From a virus, in the IMG/VR virus record IMGVR_UViG_3300032287_000577, positions 1-26,710 of that record: a DNA stretch of 26,710 bases; one strand, given 5' to 3'. The notes below the pieces were generated by a model. It made no database searches and was not told where the DNA came from. It was given only the letters and a program-made list of their open reading frames with translations. Numbering within the stretch: the stretch's first letter is position 1; every line of letters begins with the position of its first letter. Of the stretch, positions 8,255 to 25,106 are shown one piece after another. The translations under genes and the position numbers were made by a program.

Positions 8255-8797
8255 CTACTTAATATGTTTAGGTTGTACTTTAGATGTATACGGTGGAGCG
8301 GTAAATGCTGTGAGCTTACTTGCAATTTCCATTGCCTGGTAAGCATCTGCTCCAGCGTGTAACGCACCTAGTGCGTATGCTGCACCTGATCCTGCTGCGT
8401 AGACATTTGTGTCAGATTTAGATACTGAACATTCTTGGTCTACATCAAATACTTCTCCGCCCACAGCGATGATAAACTGAAAGCGCATTTCTTTTGTATC
8501 TTCATCAAAGTTATAACCATTCTCTGATAAACATTTACGCAGAGAAGGCATAGCCTTTGCAATCATAAAATGATACAAGTCTTTATAATCAGACTTTGTT
8601 GGTACTGGTGGTTCCCATATGTGTTGTGCAACATCACACGGTAGCACTTCCCCAGATCCAGCGATTAAGAATGCGCCTCTTTCAGCAATCTTCTTAACAT
8701 CTGGATGAGAATAAATTCTGCCACTGTCGTCAGTAGTTTGACTATCTGCAACAATTATAGCACTATCTTTGTACTCTAATCCAATAATTGTTGTCAT
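8255..8797 (-). CDS. HslV/proteasome-beta-like Ntn hydrolase, candidate head-maturation peptidase
   Basis: The 180-aa protein starts MTTIIGL; removal of Met would expose Thr1, the N-terminal nucleophile of proteasome beta and HslV peptidases. The other family landmarks are present: VADSQTT places Asp at mature position 17, VKKI aligns with the HslV Lys33 region after a two-residue insertion, and the GSGAAYALGALHAG block matches the conserved GSGxxYA region. There is no propeptide, as in HslV. No HslU-type ATPase gene is in the window. The gene lies between portal and the large virion proteins, where phages often keep a prohead protease, so cleavage of scaffold or head proteins is a reasonable inference. 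The fold assignment is strong; the substrate is not shown. Confidence 0.8.
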   Translation of the reverse strand: MTTIIGLEYKDSAIIVADSQTTDDSGRIYSHPDVKKIAERGAFLIAGSGEVLPCDVAQHIWEPPVPTKSDYKDLYHFMIAKAMPSLRKCLSENGYNFDEDTKEMRFQFIIAVGGEVFDVDQECSVSKSDTNVYAAGSGAAYALGALHAGADAYQAMEIASKLTAFTAPPYTSKVQPKHIK

Positions 8798-14216: not shown

Positions 14217-14351
14217 ATGAACCTATCCAATGGCGATTTATTTGCTTTAATTATTGCCCTTGCTTCGGTTAATCTGGTACTGGTGGTCGCCTTTCGGCGT
14301 ATCTATGTACTAGAACGACGACTCAGTAAATTATCGGGCTATGTCCGATAA
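14217..14351 (+). CDS. Tiny single-pass membrane protein, 44 aa
   Basis: ATG at 14217 follows AGAAAGGT at good spacing. The peptide has a short polar head (MNLSNGDLF), one hydrophobic segment of about 20 residues (ALIIALASVNLVLVVAF), then a basic tail (RRIYVLERRLSKL), so it probably sits with the C-terminus inside the cell. It overlaps the next gene by 11 bases, which favours a real, coupled gene. Function unknown; small membrane proteins in early phage blocks can act on the host envelope. Confidence 0.55.
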   Translation: MNLSNGDLFALIIALASVNLVLVVAFRRIYVLERRLSKLSGYVR

Positions 14352-14535
14352 TTTGCTACTCGACCTTACTCCTAGTGAGGTTGCTATAATTCGGTCAGCA
14401 CTTAGGACTGAACAAGAAGGACACAAACGCAACGATTTCAGAACGCTTGAACTTGCGGTTCAAGATTTGCGTAATAAGATTTCAGACGCTATGATAGACA
14501 ACATCGCCAACCTTGTCCCTAAGGCTAGCGTTTAA
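14341..14535 (+). CDS. Small helical hypothetical protein, 64 aa
   Basis: Not recognised. The sequence predicts two or three amphipathic helices (LTPSEVAIIRSALRTEQ and TLELAVQDLRNKISDAM) with balanced charge and no Cys or membrane segment. The start overlaps the end of the membrane-protein gene by 11 bases in another frame, suggesting coupled translation. It precedes the amidoligase gene by about 40 bases, which hold a strong AAGGAAGGGGG ribosome site for that gene. Confidence 0.5.
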   Translation: MSDNLLLDLTPSEVAIIRSALRTEQEGHKRNDFRTLELAVQDLRNKISDAMIDNIANLVPKASV

Positions 14536-14575
14536 GTGGTAAAGTTCCTACTACTCCAAAGGAAGGGGGTGGATA

Positions 14576-15904
14576 ATGGATAATGATGAGAAAGTTTCGT
14601 GCTTTCAATGCGGTGGAGATTTCAACCTAGATGATACTAGATTGTTAGATGATAGTATCGTCTGTGTAGATTGTTCCTATTACTGCGACTACTGTTCAAG
14701 ATTAGGGCTTAAAGAACGCTCTATCTATTCAGAAGGTCACGGCTCGTTATACTGTAACGAGTGTGCAGTAGTCTGTGAGCGTTGTAATGACGGGGAACTT
14801 CGGGACAATCATCGCTATGTTAGTGGTGATGTTTGGTGTGAAAGTTGTGCCGACAATAACTCGTTCTATTGTAATGGTTGCGAGGAGTCCTTTAGTGACC
14901 GAGATGATAGTTACTATGTTCGTGATGACTCTCTGTGTGAGAGTTGCTACGAAACTTCGGCATACTATTGTGAGGATTGCGAGGAATACTTCTATGATGA
15001 TGACCCTTGCGATTGTGGTAGTGACGGCGGTAATGGTCGTGGTAATCGTCTAGGTTGTTGCGGTAATCGTGGCTTCATACATCAGTATAGTTGTAAGCCC
15101 GAAGTTAATTTCATAGGCGAATCTAAGCGCGGTTTATTCTTTGGCTTTGAGTTAGAAACTCAGATACGGACAAAGAATAATAACGGGCTAGAAGGCGCAA
15201 GTGAATTCGCAAGTAACGCACTCAAAGGTACTGCTATCCTTAAACACGACTCTAGTATAGGTCGTGACGGATACGCAGGGTTCGAGATAGTTACTCAACC
15301 GCATACGCATACGCAGTATCGTGATAACTCACAACTATTGTGGGATACCATAGATAAATTGCGTACAGATTATGAAGCAAGGTCGTGGGATACTACGACT
15401 TGCGGATTACATATTCATATTAGTCGCGCTGGCTTCAGTAGTGGCGCACACTTGCACCGATTTATCTCACTCGTCTACCATAATGCCGAGATGATGATGA
15501 AGTTCGCAGGTCGTAAGTCCGACTATGCTAGGTTCAATGATGTCTACACCTTCAATGAGTTCGACAAGCCTGTGTTCTCATTGAAGCATAAGGTGGGTGA
15601 CCCTAGACAATACAGTAGTGAGCGTATGTCTGCGGTCAATACACAAAATCGTACGACTATCGAACTCAGGTTCTTTAGGGGTACTATGAATCCAAAGGGT
15701 GTTCTATCCGCACTCGACCTTGCTCACGCTATGGTCGAATACACTAGAGAGTTACGCCTAGATGAAGTTAAACTAGGCGCACTATCGTGGGAATGGTTCT
15801 CCGATTATGTAGAGTCTAACAATGGACTCTATCCCGACTTGTATCAGCGACTAGGTAAAGTTGCTAGTACAAATCTTAGTAAGCCAACAACAATCAACGC
15901 GTAA
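14576..15904 (+). CDS. Amidoligase with N-terminal LIM-like zinc-finger array
   Basis: A 442-aa protein. Residues 9-147 carry ten CxxC-type pairs (for example C9/C12, C30/C33, C37/C40, C60/C63, C67/C70, C88/C91) at LIM- or treble-clef-like intervals of about 17-19 residues. Residues 186 to about 400 match the amidoligase (COOH-NH2 ligase, glutamine-synthetase-like) family: GFELE at 190-194, KHDSS at 223-227, GFEIVTQP at 235-242, CGLHIHIS at 276-283, and TIELRFFRGT near the end. Members of this family use ATP to join a carboxylate to an amine. The next gene is a glutamine amidotransferase, a natural ammonia source or partner. The substrate is unknown: host peptidoglycan, a protein or a small peptide are possible. 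The domain call is firm. Confidence 0.85.
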   Translation: MDNDEKVSCFQCGGDFNLDDTRLLDDSIVCVDCSYYCDYCSRLGLKERSIYSEGHGSLYCNECAVVCERCNDGELRDNHRYVSGDVWCESCADNNSFYCNGCEESFSDRDDSYYVRDDSLCESCYETSAYYCEDCEEYFYDDDPCDCGSDGGNGRGNRLGCCGNRGFIHQYSCKPEVNFIGESKRGLFFGFELETQIRTKNNNGLEGASEFASNALKGTAILKHDSSIGRDGYAGFEIVTQPHTHTQYRDNSQLLWDTIDKLRTDYEARSWDTTTCGLHIHISRAGFSSGAHLHRFISLVYHNAEMMMKFAGRKSDYARFNDVYTFNEFDKPVFSLKHKVGDPRQYSSERMSAVNTQNRTTIELRFFRGTMNPKGVLSALDLAHAMVEYTRELRLDEVKLGALSWEWFSDYVESNNGLYPDLYQRLGKVASTNLSKPTTINA

Positions 15905-15915
15905 GGGGTGATAGT

Positions 15916-16752
15916 ATGTGTCTATTAGTAGTGTGTGAACCTAACTCTACACCGAGTAAAGAGGATTTACACGCTGGTGCTTGTAGTAATCCGCACGGCT
16001 ATGGCTTTGCTATCCACGCAGGAGATACGATTATCTCAGAGCGTGGTATGTCAGCAAAGAAAATAATCAAGCGGTTCTTAGATTTGCGTAAGCAATATCC
16101 CAATGGGTATGCTATGTGGCACGCTAGGTATGCTACACACGGAGTAAAGAACGAGCAGAATTGTCACCCATTTATTGTAGGTGGTGACGAGCAGACTTAT
16201 CTAGCACACAATGGTGTACTAGACATTAACATAGCCGACAACGACAGAAGGTCGGACACTAGAGTATTCGCAGAGGATACTCTGCCTGCTATGGGTGGTG
16301 TTACAGTATTAGATGATGATAATGTATTCCATATCTTACAGAAGTGGGCAGGTGGTAGTAAGATTGCGGTACTAACTACCGACCCTACGGCACGGTACCC
16401 TATGTATCTTCTCAATGAGAAGTTGGGTACTTGGGACGACGAAGGTATATGGTGGTCGAATAGTTCGCACAAGCGTACTACTGTGGTGGCAACGCCATTG
16501 TGGACTAAGGAGGAGGACAAAGAGTATGATGAGCAACTCCTTAAATACTATCGGACTCTAGCAGATGGTGACATTCCCGATATGGAAGTGTGTATATTCT
16601 GTGAAGCAATCGTAGACTTTGTGGAGAACCCGTACTATTGTACAATGTGTGAAACCTGCTACGATTGTGAACAGACAATAGTAGATTGTCTATGCTACAC
16701 ACCTGATAGGGTGTGGAAATCCAAGCAATCCTTCGAGGATATGGTATACTAA
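15916..16752 (+). CDS. Class II glutamine amidotransferase with C-terminal zinc-finger tail
   Basis: A 278-aa protein starting MCLLVV. Met removal exposes Cys, the nucleophile of class II (Ntn-type) glutamine amidotransferases. HGYGF (27-31), WHARYATHG (about 68-76) and LAHNGVL are the expected glutamine-binding and oxyanion elements. The family hydrolyses glutamine to give ammonia. Residues from about 226 onward add a Cys-rich segment (CIFC, then CTMCETCYDC), so it shares metal-binding features with the amidoligase 11 bases upstream. No synthetase domain is fused. The pairing suggests that the two proteins form or edit amide bonds together. Ribosome site AAGGGGTG precedes the ATG. Confidence 0.85.
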   Translation: MCLLVVCEPNSTPSKEDLHAGACSNPHGYGFAIHAGDTIISERGMSAKKIIKRFLDLRKQYPNGYAMWHARYATHGVKNEQNCHPFIVGGDEQTYLAHNGVLDINIADNDRRSDTRVFAEDTLPAMGGVTVLDDDNVFHILQKWAGGSKIAVLTTDPTARYPMYLLNEKLGTWDDEGIWWSNSSHKRTTVVATPLWTKEEDKEYDEQLLKYYRTLADGDIPDMEVCIFCEAIVDFVENPYYCTMCETCYDCEQTIVDCLCYTPDRVWKSKQSFEDMVY

Positions 16753-16804: not shown

Positions 16805-17071
16805 ATGACAAGCACAGAAACAATTCTCGGCTTAGCCGAGGAACTGCGAGTAATCGCAGATGAAATCGCTTACAACGCATACGAGGACTCATCAGAGTTT
16901 CTCAAGCGTGGTACTATCGTCAAGGCTAAAGAGGTTCAGAACCGCTTCAAGCCTAAGTCAATGTGGGTTTCACTCGGAGACGGCACATACAAGCACATCA
17001 CAGGTAAGAAGGGCTTAGTTACTAAGCAGTCACGCCTTGATGGGTTTGTAGATGTGGTGTTCACCGCGTAA
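16805..17071 (+). CDS. Hypothetical protein, 88 aa
   Basis: Not recognised. An N-terminal acidic helix (residues 4-30, ETILGLAEELRVIADEIA) is followed by a beta-rich, basic C-terminal half (LKRGTIVKAKEVQ, MWVSLGDGTYKHITG, FVDVVF) that could be a small SH3-like barrel. AGAGAGGT precedes the ATG. The stop overlaps the next ATG (TAATG), so the pair is coupled. No membrane segment or Cys. Function unknown. Confidence 0.55.
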   Translation: MTSTETILGLAEELRVIADEIAYNAYEDSSEFLKRGTIVKAKEVQNRFKPKSMWVSLGDGTYKHITGKKGLVTKQSRLDGFVDVVFTA

Positions 17072-17443: not shown

Positions 17444-17560
17444 TTGGAGTTAGCCAGATTTATATTTGTCTTTAGTACAGTCGCCTTGTTAGGTGGCGTT
17501 ACTCCATTAGGCATAGTATTTTTCTTGCTCATACTTTATGTACTAGGTATAATGTTATGA
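17444..17560 (+). CDS. Tiny hydrophobic membrane protein, 38 aa, TTG start
   Basis: TTG at 17444 is preceded by GAAAGG at 6-7 nt, and the stop overlaps the whiB start as ATGA, both signs of a real gene. After a short head (MELARF) almost the whole peptide is hydrophobic, with a Gly/Pro turn (LLGGVTPLG) in the middle, so it probably forms two short membrane helices. Small hydrophobic phage peptides can act as holin-like or membrane-modifying proteins. No function is assigned. Confidence 0.5.
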   Translation: MELARFIFVFSTVALLGGVTPLGIVFFLLILYVLGIML

Positions 17561-17877
17561 ACGGATTATGTACAGGTCATAGCGACCCTGACTTATGGTT
17601 CTCAGACACATTGGAAACTGTAGGTAGTGGTAGTGTTCCTAAGGCACAGCAAATCGCTATGCTTGAACGAGCACAACGAGCACTAGCAATTTGTAATAAG
17701 TGTCCTATCATTAAGGAATGCTTAGAAGAAGGTATGAAGAGTGAGAATGTTGACTGGGGTATTTGGGGTGGCACACTATCAGGTGAGCGACTCCTTATCA
17801 AAAGAAAGACAGTCAAAGGTACTGATCGAATAAGGAAAGTACACTTCGCACATAGAGTGAGAGGAACACAACAATGA
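17557..17877 (+). CDS. whiB: WhiB-family iron-sulfur transcriptional regulator
   Basis: A 106-aa protein with the four cluster-binding cysteines of WhiB-like proteins: C5, C46, C49 and C55 (CNKCPIIKEC). The GIWGG turn is at 68-72 and a basic C-terminal tail (KRKTVKGTDRIRKVHFAHR) provides DNA contact. PDLWFS near the N-terminus is also typical. WhiB proteins occur essentially only in Actinobacteria and their phages, and several bind the primary sigma factor, so this gene is the best host marker in the window. It probably redirects host transcription. It is coupled by 4-base ATGA overlaps both upstream and downstream. Confidence 0.93.
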   Translation: MNGLCTGHSDPDLWFSDTLETVGSGSVPKAQQIAMLERAQRALAICNKCPIIKECLEEGMKSENVDWGIWGGTLSGERLLIKRKTVKGTDRIRKVHFAHRVRGTQQ

Positions 17878-18272
17878 GAGTAATGATTTTCTTACTGCTT
17901 ATCATTGGCGCAATGCTGAAGTTCGGACAACAAGTAGATGAACCTACACCACCGATGGGAACGGTAGAGATTCAACAGACTTGGACTGTCACGGACAGTA
18001 AGGCATACGCACAAGATAGGCTGAAAGAATGGCAACAAAAGCAGTGGTCTTGCCTTAACAGATTGTGGGGTAAAGAATCAGCGTGGAATCCTGATGCGTA
18101 CAATAGCATTAAGGTAATGGGGAGAAACGCTGGTGGAATACCGCAACTGTTAGGGCTTGACCCTGCTACACCAGCAACGCGTCAGATTGAGCGTGGCTTG
18201 GATTATATTTATTACAGATACGGAACTCCTTGCGAGGCTTGGAAGTTCTTTAACGAGAAGGGCTGGCACTAA
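17874..18272 (+). CDS. Membrane-anchored lytic transglycosylase-like protein
   Basis: A 132-aa protein. Residues 3-17 form a signal or anchor segment (VMIFLLLIIGAML). After a short linker comes a compact domain from about residue 53: WSCLNRLWGKESAWNP, with Glu68 in the ES motif as the probable catalytic acid. GGIPQLLGL, GLDYIYYRYG and a closing PCEAW complete it, and the two cysteines could form a disulfide. This pattern is typical of the transglycosylase domain found in actinobacterial secreted proteins and phages. It would cleave peptidoglycan glycan strands outside the membrane. It is coupled to whiB by an ATGA overlap and sits away from the lysis genes, so a role other than final lysis is possible. 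Confidence 0.8.
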   Translation: MRVMIFLLLIIGAMLKFGQQVDEPTPPMGTVEIQQTWTVTDSKAYAQDRLKEWQQKQWSCLNRLWGKESAWNPDAYNSIKVMGRNAGGIPQLLGLDPATPATRQIERGLDYIYYRYGTPCEAWKFFNEKGWH

Positions 18273-18496
18273 TGAGTAAAGATATAAACGATCTTGTGCC
18301 TGACTATTCTGAATCTATGGACATACGCGGTAATCCAACTCGCGTGTGTCCGTGTGCTTCAGATACTTGGAATCTCAAGGTCAAGTTCGACGAGGACGGT
18401 GACATAAGTATGTACTTCTTAGATATGGAGTGCGCTTCCTGTGGTACACTAGCGACAGCACCAACACCTATAGATGGGGAGATAGAAGATGCCTGA
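18272..18496 (+). CDS. Small zinc-ribbon protein, 74 aa
   Basis: Two cysteine pairs (VCPCAS at about 26-28 and CASCG at about 54-57) separated by a beta-rich stretch (NLKVKFDEDGDISMYFLDM) look like a one-zinc ribbon. The rest is acidic. ATG overlaps the stop of the transglycosylase gene (TAATG). No specific partner or target can be named. Confidence 0.6.
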   Translation: MSKDINDLVPDYSESMDIRGNPTRVCPCASDTWNLKVKFDEDGDISMYFLDMECASCGTLATAPTPIDGEIEDA

Positions 18497-21291: not shown

Positions 21292-21627
21292 TCATTCTCC
21301 ATCTTTAAGTAGCTGTTTAAGTTCATTATCCAAATCTGCTACGCTAGAACTGACTATCATATCTTCAATTGTGTCCACGATAGTTCGTGGGTCAGTCTCA
21401 GCAAGAAACAAAGTCAAGTATGTCTCTTGCGCTATGCGCTTGACATCATCAGGACTGTCAGCATAACGATACAGACACTTAAGCAATGAACCTATCATTA
21501 ACTTATACCCATTAGGTAAGATCAATGCTGGGTCAAACTCATCATCCTCTTCGAGTAGATGGTCTGTTGCTTCAAACACATTCTCAAACTTCTCACCACA
21601 CTCTGGACATTCATCTCTATTAATCAT
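21292..21627 (-). CDS. Zinc-finger-containing hypothetical protein, 111 aa
   Basis: I place the start at ATG 21627 (MINRDECPEC), with GGGAATGGGA upstream and an 8-base overlap with the primase gene; an upstream extension in this frame only shadows the primase. The N-terminus CPECGEKFENVFEATDHLLE resembles a C2H2 finger. The rest is helical (LMIGSLLKCLYRYA, RIAQETYLTLFLAE) with an acidic C-terminus. No known function; location suggests a DNA replication accessory role. Confidence 0.6.
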   Translation of the reverse strand: MINRDECPECGEKFENVFEATDHLLEEDDEFDPALILPNGYKLMIGSLLKCLYRYADSPDDVKRIAQETYLTLFLAETDPRTIVDTIEDMIVSSSVADLDNELKQLLKDGE

Positions 21628-22249
21628 CGAATCCCATTCCCATCTTTTCTCTGACATATTCCGCACCGTGTTTGACGTAGGCAGAATTAACATCTTCACC
21701 TTCACCCATTGAGACAATGGTGACTGGTAATTCTCTTGCGAGTCCAGTTGCGAATTCTTTTCCTGGCTGATCTCCGTCTGCGAAAACAAATATTCTTTCA
21801 AAGTCCGCAAGTAATCTTGTATAATGTTTCTTCCACGAGTTAGCACCAGGAACACCAACACAAGGAATACCAATACACTTACTGAGAGTAAGAGTGTCCA
21901 ACTCACCTTCACATACTCCAATCCAATCACCTGCTCGTTCAATATCTAGAACGTTGTACATCTTTGTTTCAGCACCAGTCATACCCATATACTTAGGCTC
22001 AACAGCAGGGTTAAGACTGCGGAAACGAAGATCAACAACCCCAGTTTTAGTAATGTACGGGATGGTAAGTCTACCAATGAACGCTTCGTGTCCAACCTCA
22101 GGCTCCGCGACTACGCCTAATCGAGCCAGCCGTGCCACTTCCACTGTTATACCTCTGCTTTTGAGGTAATCTTCGGCTAGATAAATGTTTTCCTGATACC
22201 GTTGAACTGCTCTCCCCAGTAATTCCTTCTGCGATTCGTTTTGCTTCAC
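21620..22249 (-). CDS. DNA primase, Toprim part (second frame of a split gene)
   Basis: A 209-aa reading frame starting at GTG 22249, containing the DnaG-type Toprim domain: VCEGELD (E114, E116) and FVFADGDQPG (D158, D160) are the catalytic acidic motifs, and VGVPGANSW lies between them. The N-terminal part (AVQRYQENIYLAEDYLKSRGI) is the linker usually seen between a zinc-finger domain and the RNA polymerase core. The matching zinc-binding domain is in the preceding ORF, one base out of frame, overlapping by 152 bases. Either the two are one protein joined by a +1 shift near 22214-22217, or the start codon is used. The gene makes RNA primers for replication. Confidence 0.8.
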   Translation of the reverse strand: MKQNESQKELLGRAVQRYQENIYLAEDYLKSRGITVEVARLARLGVVAEPEVGHEAFIGRLTIPYITKTGVVDLRFRSLNPAVEPKYMGMTGAETKMYNVLDIERAGDWIGVCEGELDTLTLSKCIGIPCVGVPGANSWKKHYTRLLADFERIFVFADGDQPGKEFATGLARELPVTIVSMGEGEDVNSAYVKHGAEYVREKMGMGFDD

Positions 22250-22454
22250 GAATATCGACCCCCTCTTGTCTTGCTATAAGTTGTAGACTGTTACCTTGTA
22301 CGCCACAGGCGAAACAAATAAATATATTCTCATCTAAGTTTGCAGTACCTGACTGGTGAGTATCGCCGTGAAACGGACACTTGAGATTTGTTTGTCCGTG
22401 ATCTCTGCGTATGCTGGCACCGTAGTGTTCAAGCACTGCCTTGACCGAAGGCAT
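22098..22454 (-). CDS. DNA primase, CHC2 zinc-binding part (first frame of a split gene)
   Basis: ATG at 22454 (MPSVKAVLEHYG) has GGTGAG just upstream and directly follows the previous stop. C26, H29, C47 and C50 (CPFH, CFAC) are the CHC2 zinc ligands of DnaG-type primases, used to recognise template DNA. The protein-like sequence ends near EAKRIAEGITG. The last about 35 residues (Ser/Arg/Gly-rich) look like out-of-frame reading of the Toprim ORF. This suggests a frame change at the GGGG run on the minus strand (22217-22214). Confidence 0.8.
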   Translation of the reverse strand: MPSVKAVLEHYGASIRRDHGQTNLKCPFHGDTHQSGTANLDENIFICFACGVQGNSLQLIARQEGVDIREAKRIAEGITGESSSTVSGKHLSSRRLPQKQRYNSGSGTAGSIRRSRGA

Positions 22455-22455
22455 A

Positions 22456-22824
22456 TCACTCACCGAATACATCACCTAATCTTAAGACAAGGTACGAGTC
22501 GGATATAGATTTTCCTCGCGCTTTAATGAGGACTGCAGGGAGAACTTCTTCTCTCTTGAGATTTCTGGCTTCCGCATAATGCGTTGCTTCCAGTTGGGCT
22601 TCTCTTGTCCACCCACTAAGGTCAATGGAGTTGCCTGCACCTGGGGCTTTTGCTTCGATAATTCCAATGCTACCAAGGAAGTCCGAACGGACAACAACGT
22701 CTCCCTCATCTTTTGCACCTGTTCTTGCAAGTCGTTCAGCGTCGTATCCATTTGCTCTAAACCAGTCCTTGATGTCTGTTTCATATGTTGCCCCTCTTTG
22801 CTTGTGTGATTTTCTAGTTGTCAT
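22456..22824 (-). CDS. Holliday-junction-resolvase-like PD-(D/E)XK nuclease
   Basis: A 122-aa protein with the pattern of Hjc-type and related small phage resolvases: an N-terminal helix with E15 (RGATYETDIKDWF), RTGAKDEGDVVV with D42, then IIEAKAPG with E57 and K59. These residues bind two metal ions for phosphodiester cleavage. LSGWTREAQLEATHYAE is the following helix and LVLRLGDVF the last strand. It overlaps the upstream gene by 11 bases and stops just before the primase start. The likely role is resolving branched DNA during replication or packaging. Confidence 0.75.
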   Translation of the reverse strand: MTTRKSHKQRGATYETDIKDWFRANGYDAERLARTGAKDEGDVVVRSDFLGSIGIIEAKAPGAGNSIDLSGWTREAQLEATHYAEARNLKREEVLPAVLIKARGKSISDSYLVLRLGDVFGE

Positions 22825-24279: not shown

Positions 24280-24888
24280 TTATTTTTCTACTTTCGTTGA
24301 GAACTGACAGTGAGCGGTCATACCACATCTGTACTGACAGTTATTTGTATTAGGAAGAAATATACCAGACTTTCTTGCTTTATCAAAGTTCTGCGCAAGG
24401 TAGTCCATCTTGTCACCAGTGTATGTTGACAGATCAACCATTGAACTTGTGCCCGACTGACGTGCCATCCAGTATGTACCCAAATTGATTTCAACCCCAA
24501 AGACTCTTTCGAGTCCCACCTTATAGAAACCAAGTTGAAGCGCACTGGAAGGGGTTTGCTGAGAGGTTTTCAAGTCAACAACAACAAGTTGTCCATCGAC
24601 TTCAAACACCCTGTCAATCACCATCTTGACTGGCACGCCAGCAAAGTCAGGCATCAACGCTAACTCGATTGCTGGATTACCATCAGGTGTCTTCCAGATT
24701 TTCCAGTTAGGATTGTTCTTGCGCCAAGCGATGTAACTATCTACCCACTTGGAACCTTCTGCTTCCCACCATACGGCATCTTCTTTGTCAGGGTTTGCCT
24801 TAGTGGATCGACCACCCACACGTGCTTTGCTTAGGTCTAAGTCTTTTGTTTCCTTGAGCCAGGCAAGATCCCAGTATGTGTTACTCAT
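24280..24888 (-). CDS. Cas4/RecB-like nuclease, catalytic part (second ORF of a split gene)
   Basis: A 202-aa protein. Motif II D92 (MVIDRVF) and motif III D105-L-K107 (VVVDLKTSQQ) are the metal-binding residues of the RecB/Cas4 PD-(D/E)XK nuclease branch, followed by QLGFYK for the QxxxY motif. The C-terminus has NNCQYRCGMTAHC, three Cys resembling the Fe-S cluster motif of Cas4/AddB-type enzymes. The fourth Cys and the first part of the nuclease fold are in the preceding ORF, with which it overlaps by 8 bases (ATGAGTAA). The enzyme probably acts as an exonuclease in recombination or replication. Confidence 0.78.
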   Translation of the reverse strand: MSNTYWDLAWLKETKDLDLSKARVGGRSTKANPDKEDAVWWEAEGSKWVDSYIAWRKNNPNWKIWKTPDGNPAIELALMPDFAGVPVKMVIDRVFEVDGQLVVVDLKTSQQTPSSALQLGFYKVGLERVFGVEINLGTYWMARQSGTSSMVDLSTYTGDKMDYLAQNFDKARKSGIFLPNTNNCQYRCGMTAHCQFSTKVEK

Positions 24889-25072
24889 TCTCTAAGTCCC
24901 ACATTTCTGCCGCGTAATGGAATGCCTTACCCCCTGCGGACCACACAGATGGTTGCTCAGGGATGGATAGTAGTCTTGATAGATAGTACATATACCCACA
25001 GTCAATGTAGGTAGTCAGTGCTGAGTAGCTGATGTGTTCGGGTATCTCATACCCTTCAAGTTCAATTGTCAT
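24881..25072 (-). CDS. Cas4/RecB-like nuclease, N-terminal part (first ORF of a split gene)
   Basis: A 63-aa protein matching the beginning of RecB/Cas4-type nucleases: HISYSALTTYIDCGYMYYLSR with C25, a probable Fe-S ligand, then VWSAGGKAFHYAAEMW, the motif I His region. The frame stops at TAA 24881-24883, and the rest of the enzyme continues one base out of frame. I chose ATG 25072 (MTIELEG): a promoter -10 box ends 6 bases upstream, so the mRNA probably starts at or next to the ATG (leaderless), common in actinobacteria. A second ATG lies at 25090. Confidence 0.7.
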   Translation of the reverse strand: MTIELEGYEIPEHISYSALTTYIDCGYMYYLSRLLSIPEQPSVWSAGGKAFHYAAEMWDLENE

Positions 25073-25078
25073 AACCGC

Positions 25079-25106
25079 AGTATACACCATCAGGCCTGTT
25101 GTGCAA
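25079..25106 (-). promoter_or_regulatory. Leftward promoter for the replication operon
   Basis: -35 TTGCAC at 25106-25101 and -10 TATACT at 25084-25079, separated by 16 bp. Transcription should begin about 7 bases downstream, at or near the ATG at 25072, giving a leaderless mRNA. A good host sigma-70-type match. Confidence 0.6.

Follow-up and report, generated by a model that had tools for sequence, protein, structure and literature searches.

An amidoligase and glutamine amidotransferase pair in an actinobacterial phage, with a predicted zinc-finger array that is exchanged among related viruses

Adjacent genes for an amidoligase and a glutamine amidotransferase (GAT) have been on record in phages since 2009. 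Mycobacteriophage Marvin (Marvinvirus) carries such a pair as gp105 and gp106 (phrog_22302 and phrog_25883), and the OM43 phages MEP401 and MEP402 (Zobellviridae) carry an adjacent PF12224 and PF13522 pair that has been named an auxiliary metabolic set (PMC10580990). Podoviruses of the phiEco32/LUZ24/PSA-HP1-like kind hold an amidoligase and a glutamine amidotransferase among their early genes, in cassettes that add a second amidoligase, ATP-grasp and AIG2/GGCT genes (PMC5498523, PMC3890496). Among annotated phages, we found the adjacent pair in Marvin-like mycobacteriophages, the OM43 phages and a Manatee Spring podovirus. Because it is on record in Marvin, OM43 and LUZ24/phiEco32-like phages, the pair is not of a new kind; what is new here is the N-terminal array of the ligase, the swapping of that array, a four-gene unit inherited all-or-none in the relatives sampled, the spread of the pair in bacteria and a probable host. 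Our literature search met no description of a LIM-like domain on an amidoligase or of its swapping, with priority uncertain as the key 2009 paper lay outside its reach, and it met no biochemistry for any family member.

The stretch of DNA analysed, here called the window (IMG/VR record IMGVR_UViG_3300032287_000577), spans 26.7 kb and covers about two thirds of a predicted genome of ~39 kb. Its terminase is 78% identical to those of Planktophila phages E7 and F5, which were the first phages to be isolated on ‘Ca. Nanopelagicales’, and its GC content (43.7% vs 44.7-44.8% in E7 and F5) and genome size are also in keeping with them. A gene for a WhiB-like regulator (17557..17877, + strand; PF02467, E 9e-12), a core gene of the group rather than a companion of the pair, marks an actinobacterial host, which is probably ‘Ca. 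Nanopelagicales’, abundant freshwater actinobacteria. Probably no freshwater bacteria are more abundant than those infected by this phage group; the pair also occurs in gut Oscillospiraceae chromosomes. Searches of E7 and F5 at E 1e-5 did not detect the pair, and an HMM search of the F5 stretch did not find it either.

A sequence-only reading of the window had proposed adjacent ligase and amidotransferase genes at 14576-16752, and we recovered the same ORFs, encoding 442 aa (14576..15904, + strand) and 278 aa (15916..16752, + strand). They are co-directional and separated by 11 bp, and each has an ATG start with a Shine-Dalgarno-like sequence upstream. Profile search upheld the families proposed for them, PF12224 and PF13522, each above the curated cut-off; the catalytic and presumed metal-binding residues, whose loss would have spoken against the proposal, are conserved and invariant among relatives. 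The extra Cys-rich, putatively metal-binding regions attributed to both proteins are likewise borne out by Cys counts and conservation. The Marvin pair resembles this one in adjacency, gene order, actinobacterial host, a Cys-rich ligase N-terminus and the same Cys-rich GAT tail, but the proteins are only about 31% and 35% identical, the zinc region is much shorter than that in the window and other small genes lie on the flanks. The OM43 phages differ in their proteobacterial host and in a ligase N-terminus that is longer and less Cys-rich.

The amidoligase matches Amidoligase_2 (PF12224) with E 2.9e-7 (31 bits against a cut-off of 22), and all 64 aligned members of its family match this model too. 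GFELE (190-194), KHDSS (223-227) and CGLHIHIS (276-283), the motifs quoted in the sequence-only reading, are all present, together with FEIVT (236-240) and IELRF (362-366). The catalytic domain spans residues 186-430 (15131..15865, + strand), within which E192, E194, D225, S227, E237, H279, H281, R313, E363 and R365 are invariant in 64/64 aligned relatives. E. coli GlnA shows the same motif order, with PEPEF, HHEV, NEV, GMHCHMS and RIEVRFPDPAANP. An AlphaFold2 (AF2) model built from an alignment of 58 relatives (pLDDT 86) was compared with known structures using Foldseek, which returned YbdK, GmaS (gamma-glutamylmethylamide synthetase), glutamine synthetase (GS), Dop and PafA. The AF2 alignments for this protein and for the GAT comprised the window and the scanned loci only, and TM-scores for both models are low over the whole multi-domain chains; we therefore relied on Foldseek probabilities, E-values and invariant residues. 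By these measures the protein has the GS fold, with two E-x-E/D-x-S/E sites and the HxH and ExR sites. A ligase profile gave no significant full-length alignment with the single GlnA and YbdK sequences, so the equivalence to GS residues rests on motif order and fold; the residues are presumably those of the GS metal sites, a correspondence assumed from the established GS structure rather than computed. The ligase thus shares its fold with E. coli YbdK, glutamine synthetase and PafA/Dop, and its catalytic motif order with GlnA, but differs from them in its LIM-like N-terminus, its dedicated GAT and the lack of a significant sequence match. From sequence, it appears to keep a full GS-type centre, and the catalytic part is under purifying selection (dN/dS 0.12-0.24).

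The N-terminus of the ligase contains 23 Cys and 9 CxxC motifs, compared with a mean of 2.7 and a maximum of 8 in 5000 shuffles, and each of 15 Cys is missing from at most one of the sequences aligned there. The model of this region (residues 9-147; 14600..15016, + strand) matched the tandem LIM domains of LMO2, PINCH and LMO4 in Foldseek, in keeping with a tandem double zinc-finger fold. The match to LMO2 has E 6e-4 and probability 1.00, with a low TM-score and uncertain finger orientation. Profile comparison reached LIM chains weakly (best PDB E 0.012), and no Pfam LIM family was among the matches of the 64 members at E 0.01; since the Pfam LIM models were not reached, we term the array LIM-like only. 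In a viral structure library, one relative already bears the label ‘LIM domain containing protein’. We conclude that the Cys-rich N-terminus is a predicted tandem LIM-like zinc-finger array, putatively zinc-binding.

The second protein matches GATase_6 (PF13522; E 9e-7) and phrog_25883, the family of Marvin gp106 (E 1e-42). Its assignment as a class II (Ntn) glutamine amidotransferase draws on the profile, on the predicted Ntn fold, on a Cys directly behind the initiator Met, which would be the nucleophile (Cys2), and on the conserved glutamine-binding and oxyanion residues. The motif residues Cys2, R71, T74, H75, N99, G100 and D114 are all present, and among relatives C2, R71, T74, N99, G100 and D114 are invariant. 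The AF2 model (pLDDT 82, alignment of 54 relatives) matched the glutaminase domain of GlmS first, then PurF and EgtC, and the protein aligned with GlmS over residues 63-103. On the basis of established GlmS biochemistry, we take R71 and D114 to be the counterparts of the GlmS residues that contact free glutamine at its alpha-carboxylate and alpha-amino groups. Given that these residues are kept and that the fold is that of the GlmS glutaminase, the protein should use free glutamine and not act only as a peptidase. AsnB/LtsA, GlmS and PurF likewise employ a Cys-nucleophile glutaminase to supply ammonia to a synthase site, but here the glutaminase stands as a protein of its own, and the enzyme that would accept the ammonia is of the GS fold. 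Purifying selection also acts on the GAT (dN/dS 0.07-0.17). Its C-terminal tail (residues 226-260; 16591..16695, + strand) is predicted to bind zinc and is common to Marvin gp106; each of its 8 Cys is kept in 53/54 relatives. The linker ahead of this tail (16400-16600) is a second variable spot in the pair, with 64% identity and an indel relative to two related loci (L002 and L003).

Comparison of the window with close relatives revealed a mosaic segment (14400..15100, + strand) that covers the end of an upstream 64-aa ORF and the N-terminal array of the ligase, and is replaced from one relative to another. Nucleotide identity to L003 falls to 57-66% at 14600-14900 and to L004 to 73-84% over 14400-15200, against flanks that are mostly >90% identical in both cases. 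Synonymous divergence rises in step, with dS about 1.3 in the array vs 0.2-0.4 in the catalytic part. Family-wide, 69 of 143 ligase pairs whose catalytic halves are >85% identical in DNA show such discordance, and the reverse case also occurs: the array of L136 is 89-90% identical to those of L073 and L148, with a catalytic domain only 63-66% identical. Discordance between the two catalytic halves is rare, being seen in one pair. We rejected the view that the N-terminus varies through relaxed constraint alone, because dS is raised there too and swaps are reciprocal; pairwise dN/dS in the array is below 1, so that positive selection is not directly indicated. The array has been exchanged by recombination among relatives while the catalytic half stayed constant, a pattern expected of a target-recognition (specificity) module. 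A LIM-like, swapped array favours a macromolecular target, without proving one, and a zinc-finger front end swapped among related viruses offers a clue to the possible purpose of the pair.

Scans of IMG/VR yielded 97 dereplicated ligase loci, with the GAT directly downstream in 90/90 of those with enough flank. Since part of this set had been gathered via the GAT, a scan anchored on the terminase was used as an unbiased test of co-occurrence. Among the 28 terminase-anchored loci whose right-hand flank extends for 5 kb or more, which are mutually related and do not represent 28 independent events, 14 had both genes, 14 had neither and 0 had a single one, so that the co-occurrence on which the sequence-only reading depended holds in related phages. 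Pairwise distances correlate more closely between ligase and GAT (r = 0.82) than between ligase and TerL (0.65) or GAT and TerL (0.52). GAT-like hits that seemed exceptions in mixed searches proved mostly to have divergent or truncated partners. An apparent 681-aa ligase-GAT fusion in L268 was also rejected: comparison with L257 shows that the frame shifts close to the end of the ligase, for which a small indel in the metagenome assembly is the simplest explanation, and a fusion is further doubted because it would bury the N-terminal nucleophile. On one phage contig (L005, 4233-7041), a single GAT lies behind two tandem zinc-finger amidoligases.

In bacterial genomes, a ligase-only scan returned 80 loci, mostly from Oscillospiraceae. 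By profile search a GAT follows in 72 of them, rising to 77/80 once weak matches and genes cut off at a contig end are counted, and at many loci the two genes abut or overlap. Some of these loci have resolvase, integrase-like and conjugation genes nearby, which points to a pair that is carried in places on mobile elements in the chromosomes of gut Firmicutes. Butyricicoccus pullicaecorum DSM 23266 has the pair at no fewer than six places (at least 6: L251, L258, L263, L264, L266 and L269), some near conjugation genes, which suggests repeated mobile-element capture. A contig in a ‘Rhodobacteraceae’ genome assembly (L248) is an actinophage of the group of the window, evidently misbinned. The PADLOC anti-phage defence models gave no match for the pair, for its two small partner ORFs described below or for the bacterial relatives.

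Two small ORFs accompany the pair. The 64-aa ORF upstream (14341..14535, + strand), predicted to be helical, is conserved at 82/90 pair-bearing loci, and an 88-aa ORF downstream (16805..17071, + strand) at 83/87. Neither was found by HMM in 14 pair-less relatives or in the cultivated phage F5, so the accessory unit comprises four genes, not two. Physical linkage within one recombining block could give this pattern without functional linkage. Outside the phage group of the window, no convincing homologue of either ORF was found, a match in L248 being that on the misbinned contig. The sequence-only reading had suggested that other tiny neighbours, membrane and acidic proteins, may be the accessory parts, which conservation does not bear out: a 44-aa hydrophobic, membrane ORF (14217..14351, + strand; GRAVY 0.84) is only loosely linked to the pair (41/88 loci), and an acidic 52-aa ORF is present at only 9/87 pair-bearing loci. 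By HMM, WhiB, a lytic-transglycosylase-like protein, the ORF at 18272-18496 and a sigma-like protein are present in pair-less relatives and in F5. The entire block differs between pair-bearing and pair-less phages, and in the latter the slot is taken by unrelated small genes. In some it holds a staphylococcal-nuclease homologue, secreted-looking and located between terminase and WhiB in L328 (8807-9244) and L246 (4528-4938).

We tentatively propose, as a reading about as apt to prove wrong as right, that the two proteins are subunits of one amidating enzyme, which depends on glutamine, is driven by ATP and is directed to its target by an exchangeable zinc-finger domain. In this scheme, the GAT, its Cys2 freed by removal of Met, would hydrolyse L-glutamine to ammonia, while the GS-fold ligase, with ATP and metal ions, would activate a carboxylate as an acyl phosphate; attack by ammonia would then yield a primary amide. 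The LIM-like array would hold the target, which is probably macromolecular (a host protein, for example), and the array module would be swapped among phages when hosts or targets change. The pair and the two small ORFs would make up an accessory cassette within the divergent, early-like block that separates WhiB from the structural genes, with a likely use in host takeover, counter-defence or superinfection exclusion. Alongside the folds, catalytic residues, strict linkage, zinc-type Cys conservation and module swapping observed here, we infer ammonia transfer between the subunits, the class of target and the biological role. A more specific and rather doubtful version holds that the array is an exchangeable targeting module directing glutamine-derived amidation onto particular host proteins, a phage post-translational amidation whose module is also carried on bacterial mobile elements; its logic would be comparable to that of restriction-enzyme specificity subunits or ubiquitin ligase adaptors.

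A role at the cell wall, raised in the sequence-only reading, has been proposed in print for related phage cassettes of the phiEco32-like kind (PMC5498523, PMC10580990), but nothing in this analysis points specifically to the wall. The pair would here amidate, or add an amino acid to, cytosolic peptidoglycan precursors, changing the wall so as to resist superinfecting phages or to time lysis. A lytic-transglycosylase-like gene (17874-18272) lies in the same block, and Actinobacteria amidate stem peptides by a class II GAT-containing enzyme, LtsA/AsnB. However, relatives without the pair have the transglycosylase-like gene too; the other genes of the published peptidoglycan modification cassettes (second amidoligase, ATP-grasp, AIG2/GGCT or gamma-glutamyl cyclotransferase) were not found among the ORFs scanned in the window, itself about two thirds of the genome; a swappable multi-zinc-finger array would be odd for binding a conserved, small muropeptide; and the family is found with hosts whose walls differ greatly. 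On balance, we regard this role as rather unlikely.

The close linkage of ligase and GAT also fits two enzymes acting in sequence. In another reading, the ligase might make a peptide or isopeptide bond on a target, with the Ntn protein as a peptidase or amidase on the product instead of an ammonia donor. Amide bonds to amines or peptides are made or broken by PafA/Dop and YbdK, which share the GS fold; a gamma-glutamyl hydrolase, EgtC, is among the proteins of Ntn fold; and one study treats the GAT as a degradation gene (PMC5498523). Such a conjugating ligase with an opposing hydrolase is nevertheless an unlikely arrangement, given that the free-glutamine recognition residues of the GAT are invariant and its closest folds are true glutaminases. 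Zinc arrays are able to bind nucleic acid as well, as zinc-ribbon-like arrays do, and one relative weakly matches a Zn-ribbon RNA-binding family (E 0.0036), so that the array might bind DNA or RNA for amidation of a modified base or tRNA. This we consider highly improbable, as base-hypermodification pathway genes were not recognised among the window ORFs scanned and the structural matches of the array are protein-binding LIM domains.

For the preferred reading, a glutamine-dependent amidating enzyme aimed by its array, the swappable LIM-like module suggests a route to the substrate, with the array used as bait and with comparison of natural ligases whose sole difference lies in the array. Mycobacteriophage Marvin on M. 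smegmatis, already established in the laboratory, offers a system in which to test the pair.

Three further features of the window lie outside this block, all on the minus strand. An ORF adjoining the portal gene (8255-8797) encodes a Proteasome/HslV-type peptidase (PF00227, E 2.8e-5; phrog_1040, E 1.4e-28), probably a head-maturation protease of unusual fold. A PD-(D/E)XK exonuclease is spread over two overlapping ORFs at 24280-25090, which match the C- and N-terminal parts of one profile and reflect a frameshift, a split gene or a sequencing error. The primase (21620-22475) is likewise encoded as overlapping ORFs, one with the CHC2 zinc finger and the other with the Toprim domain.
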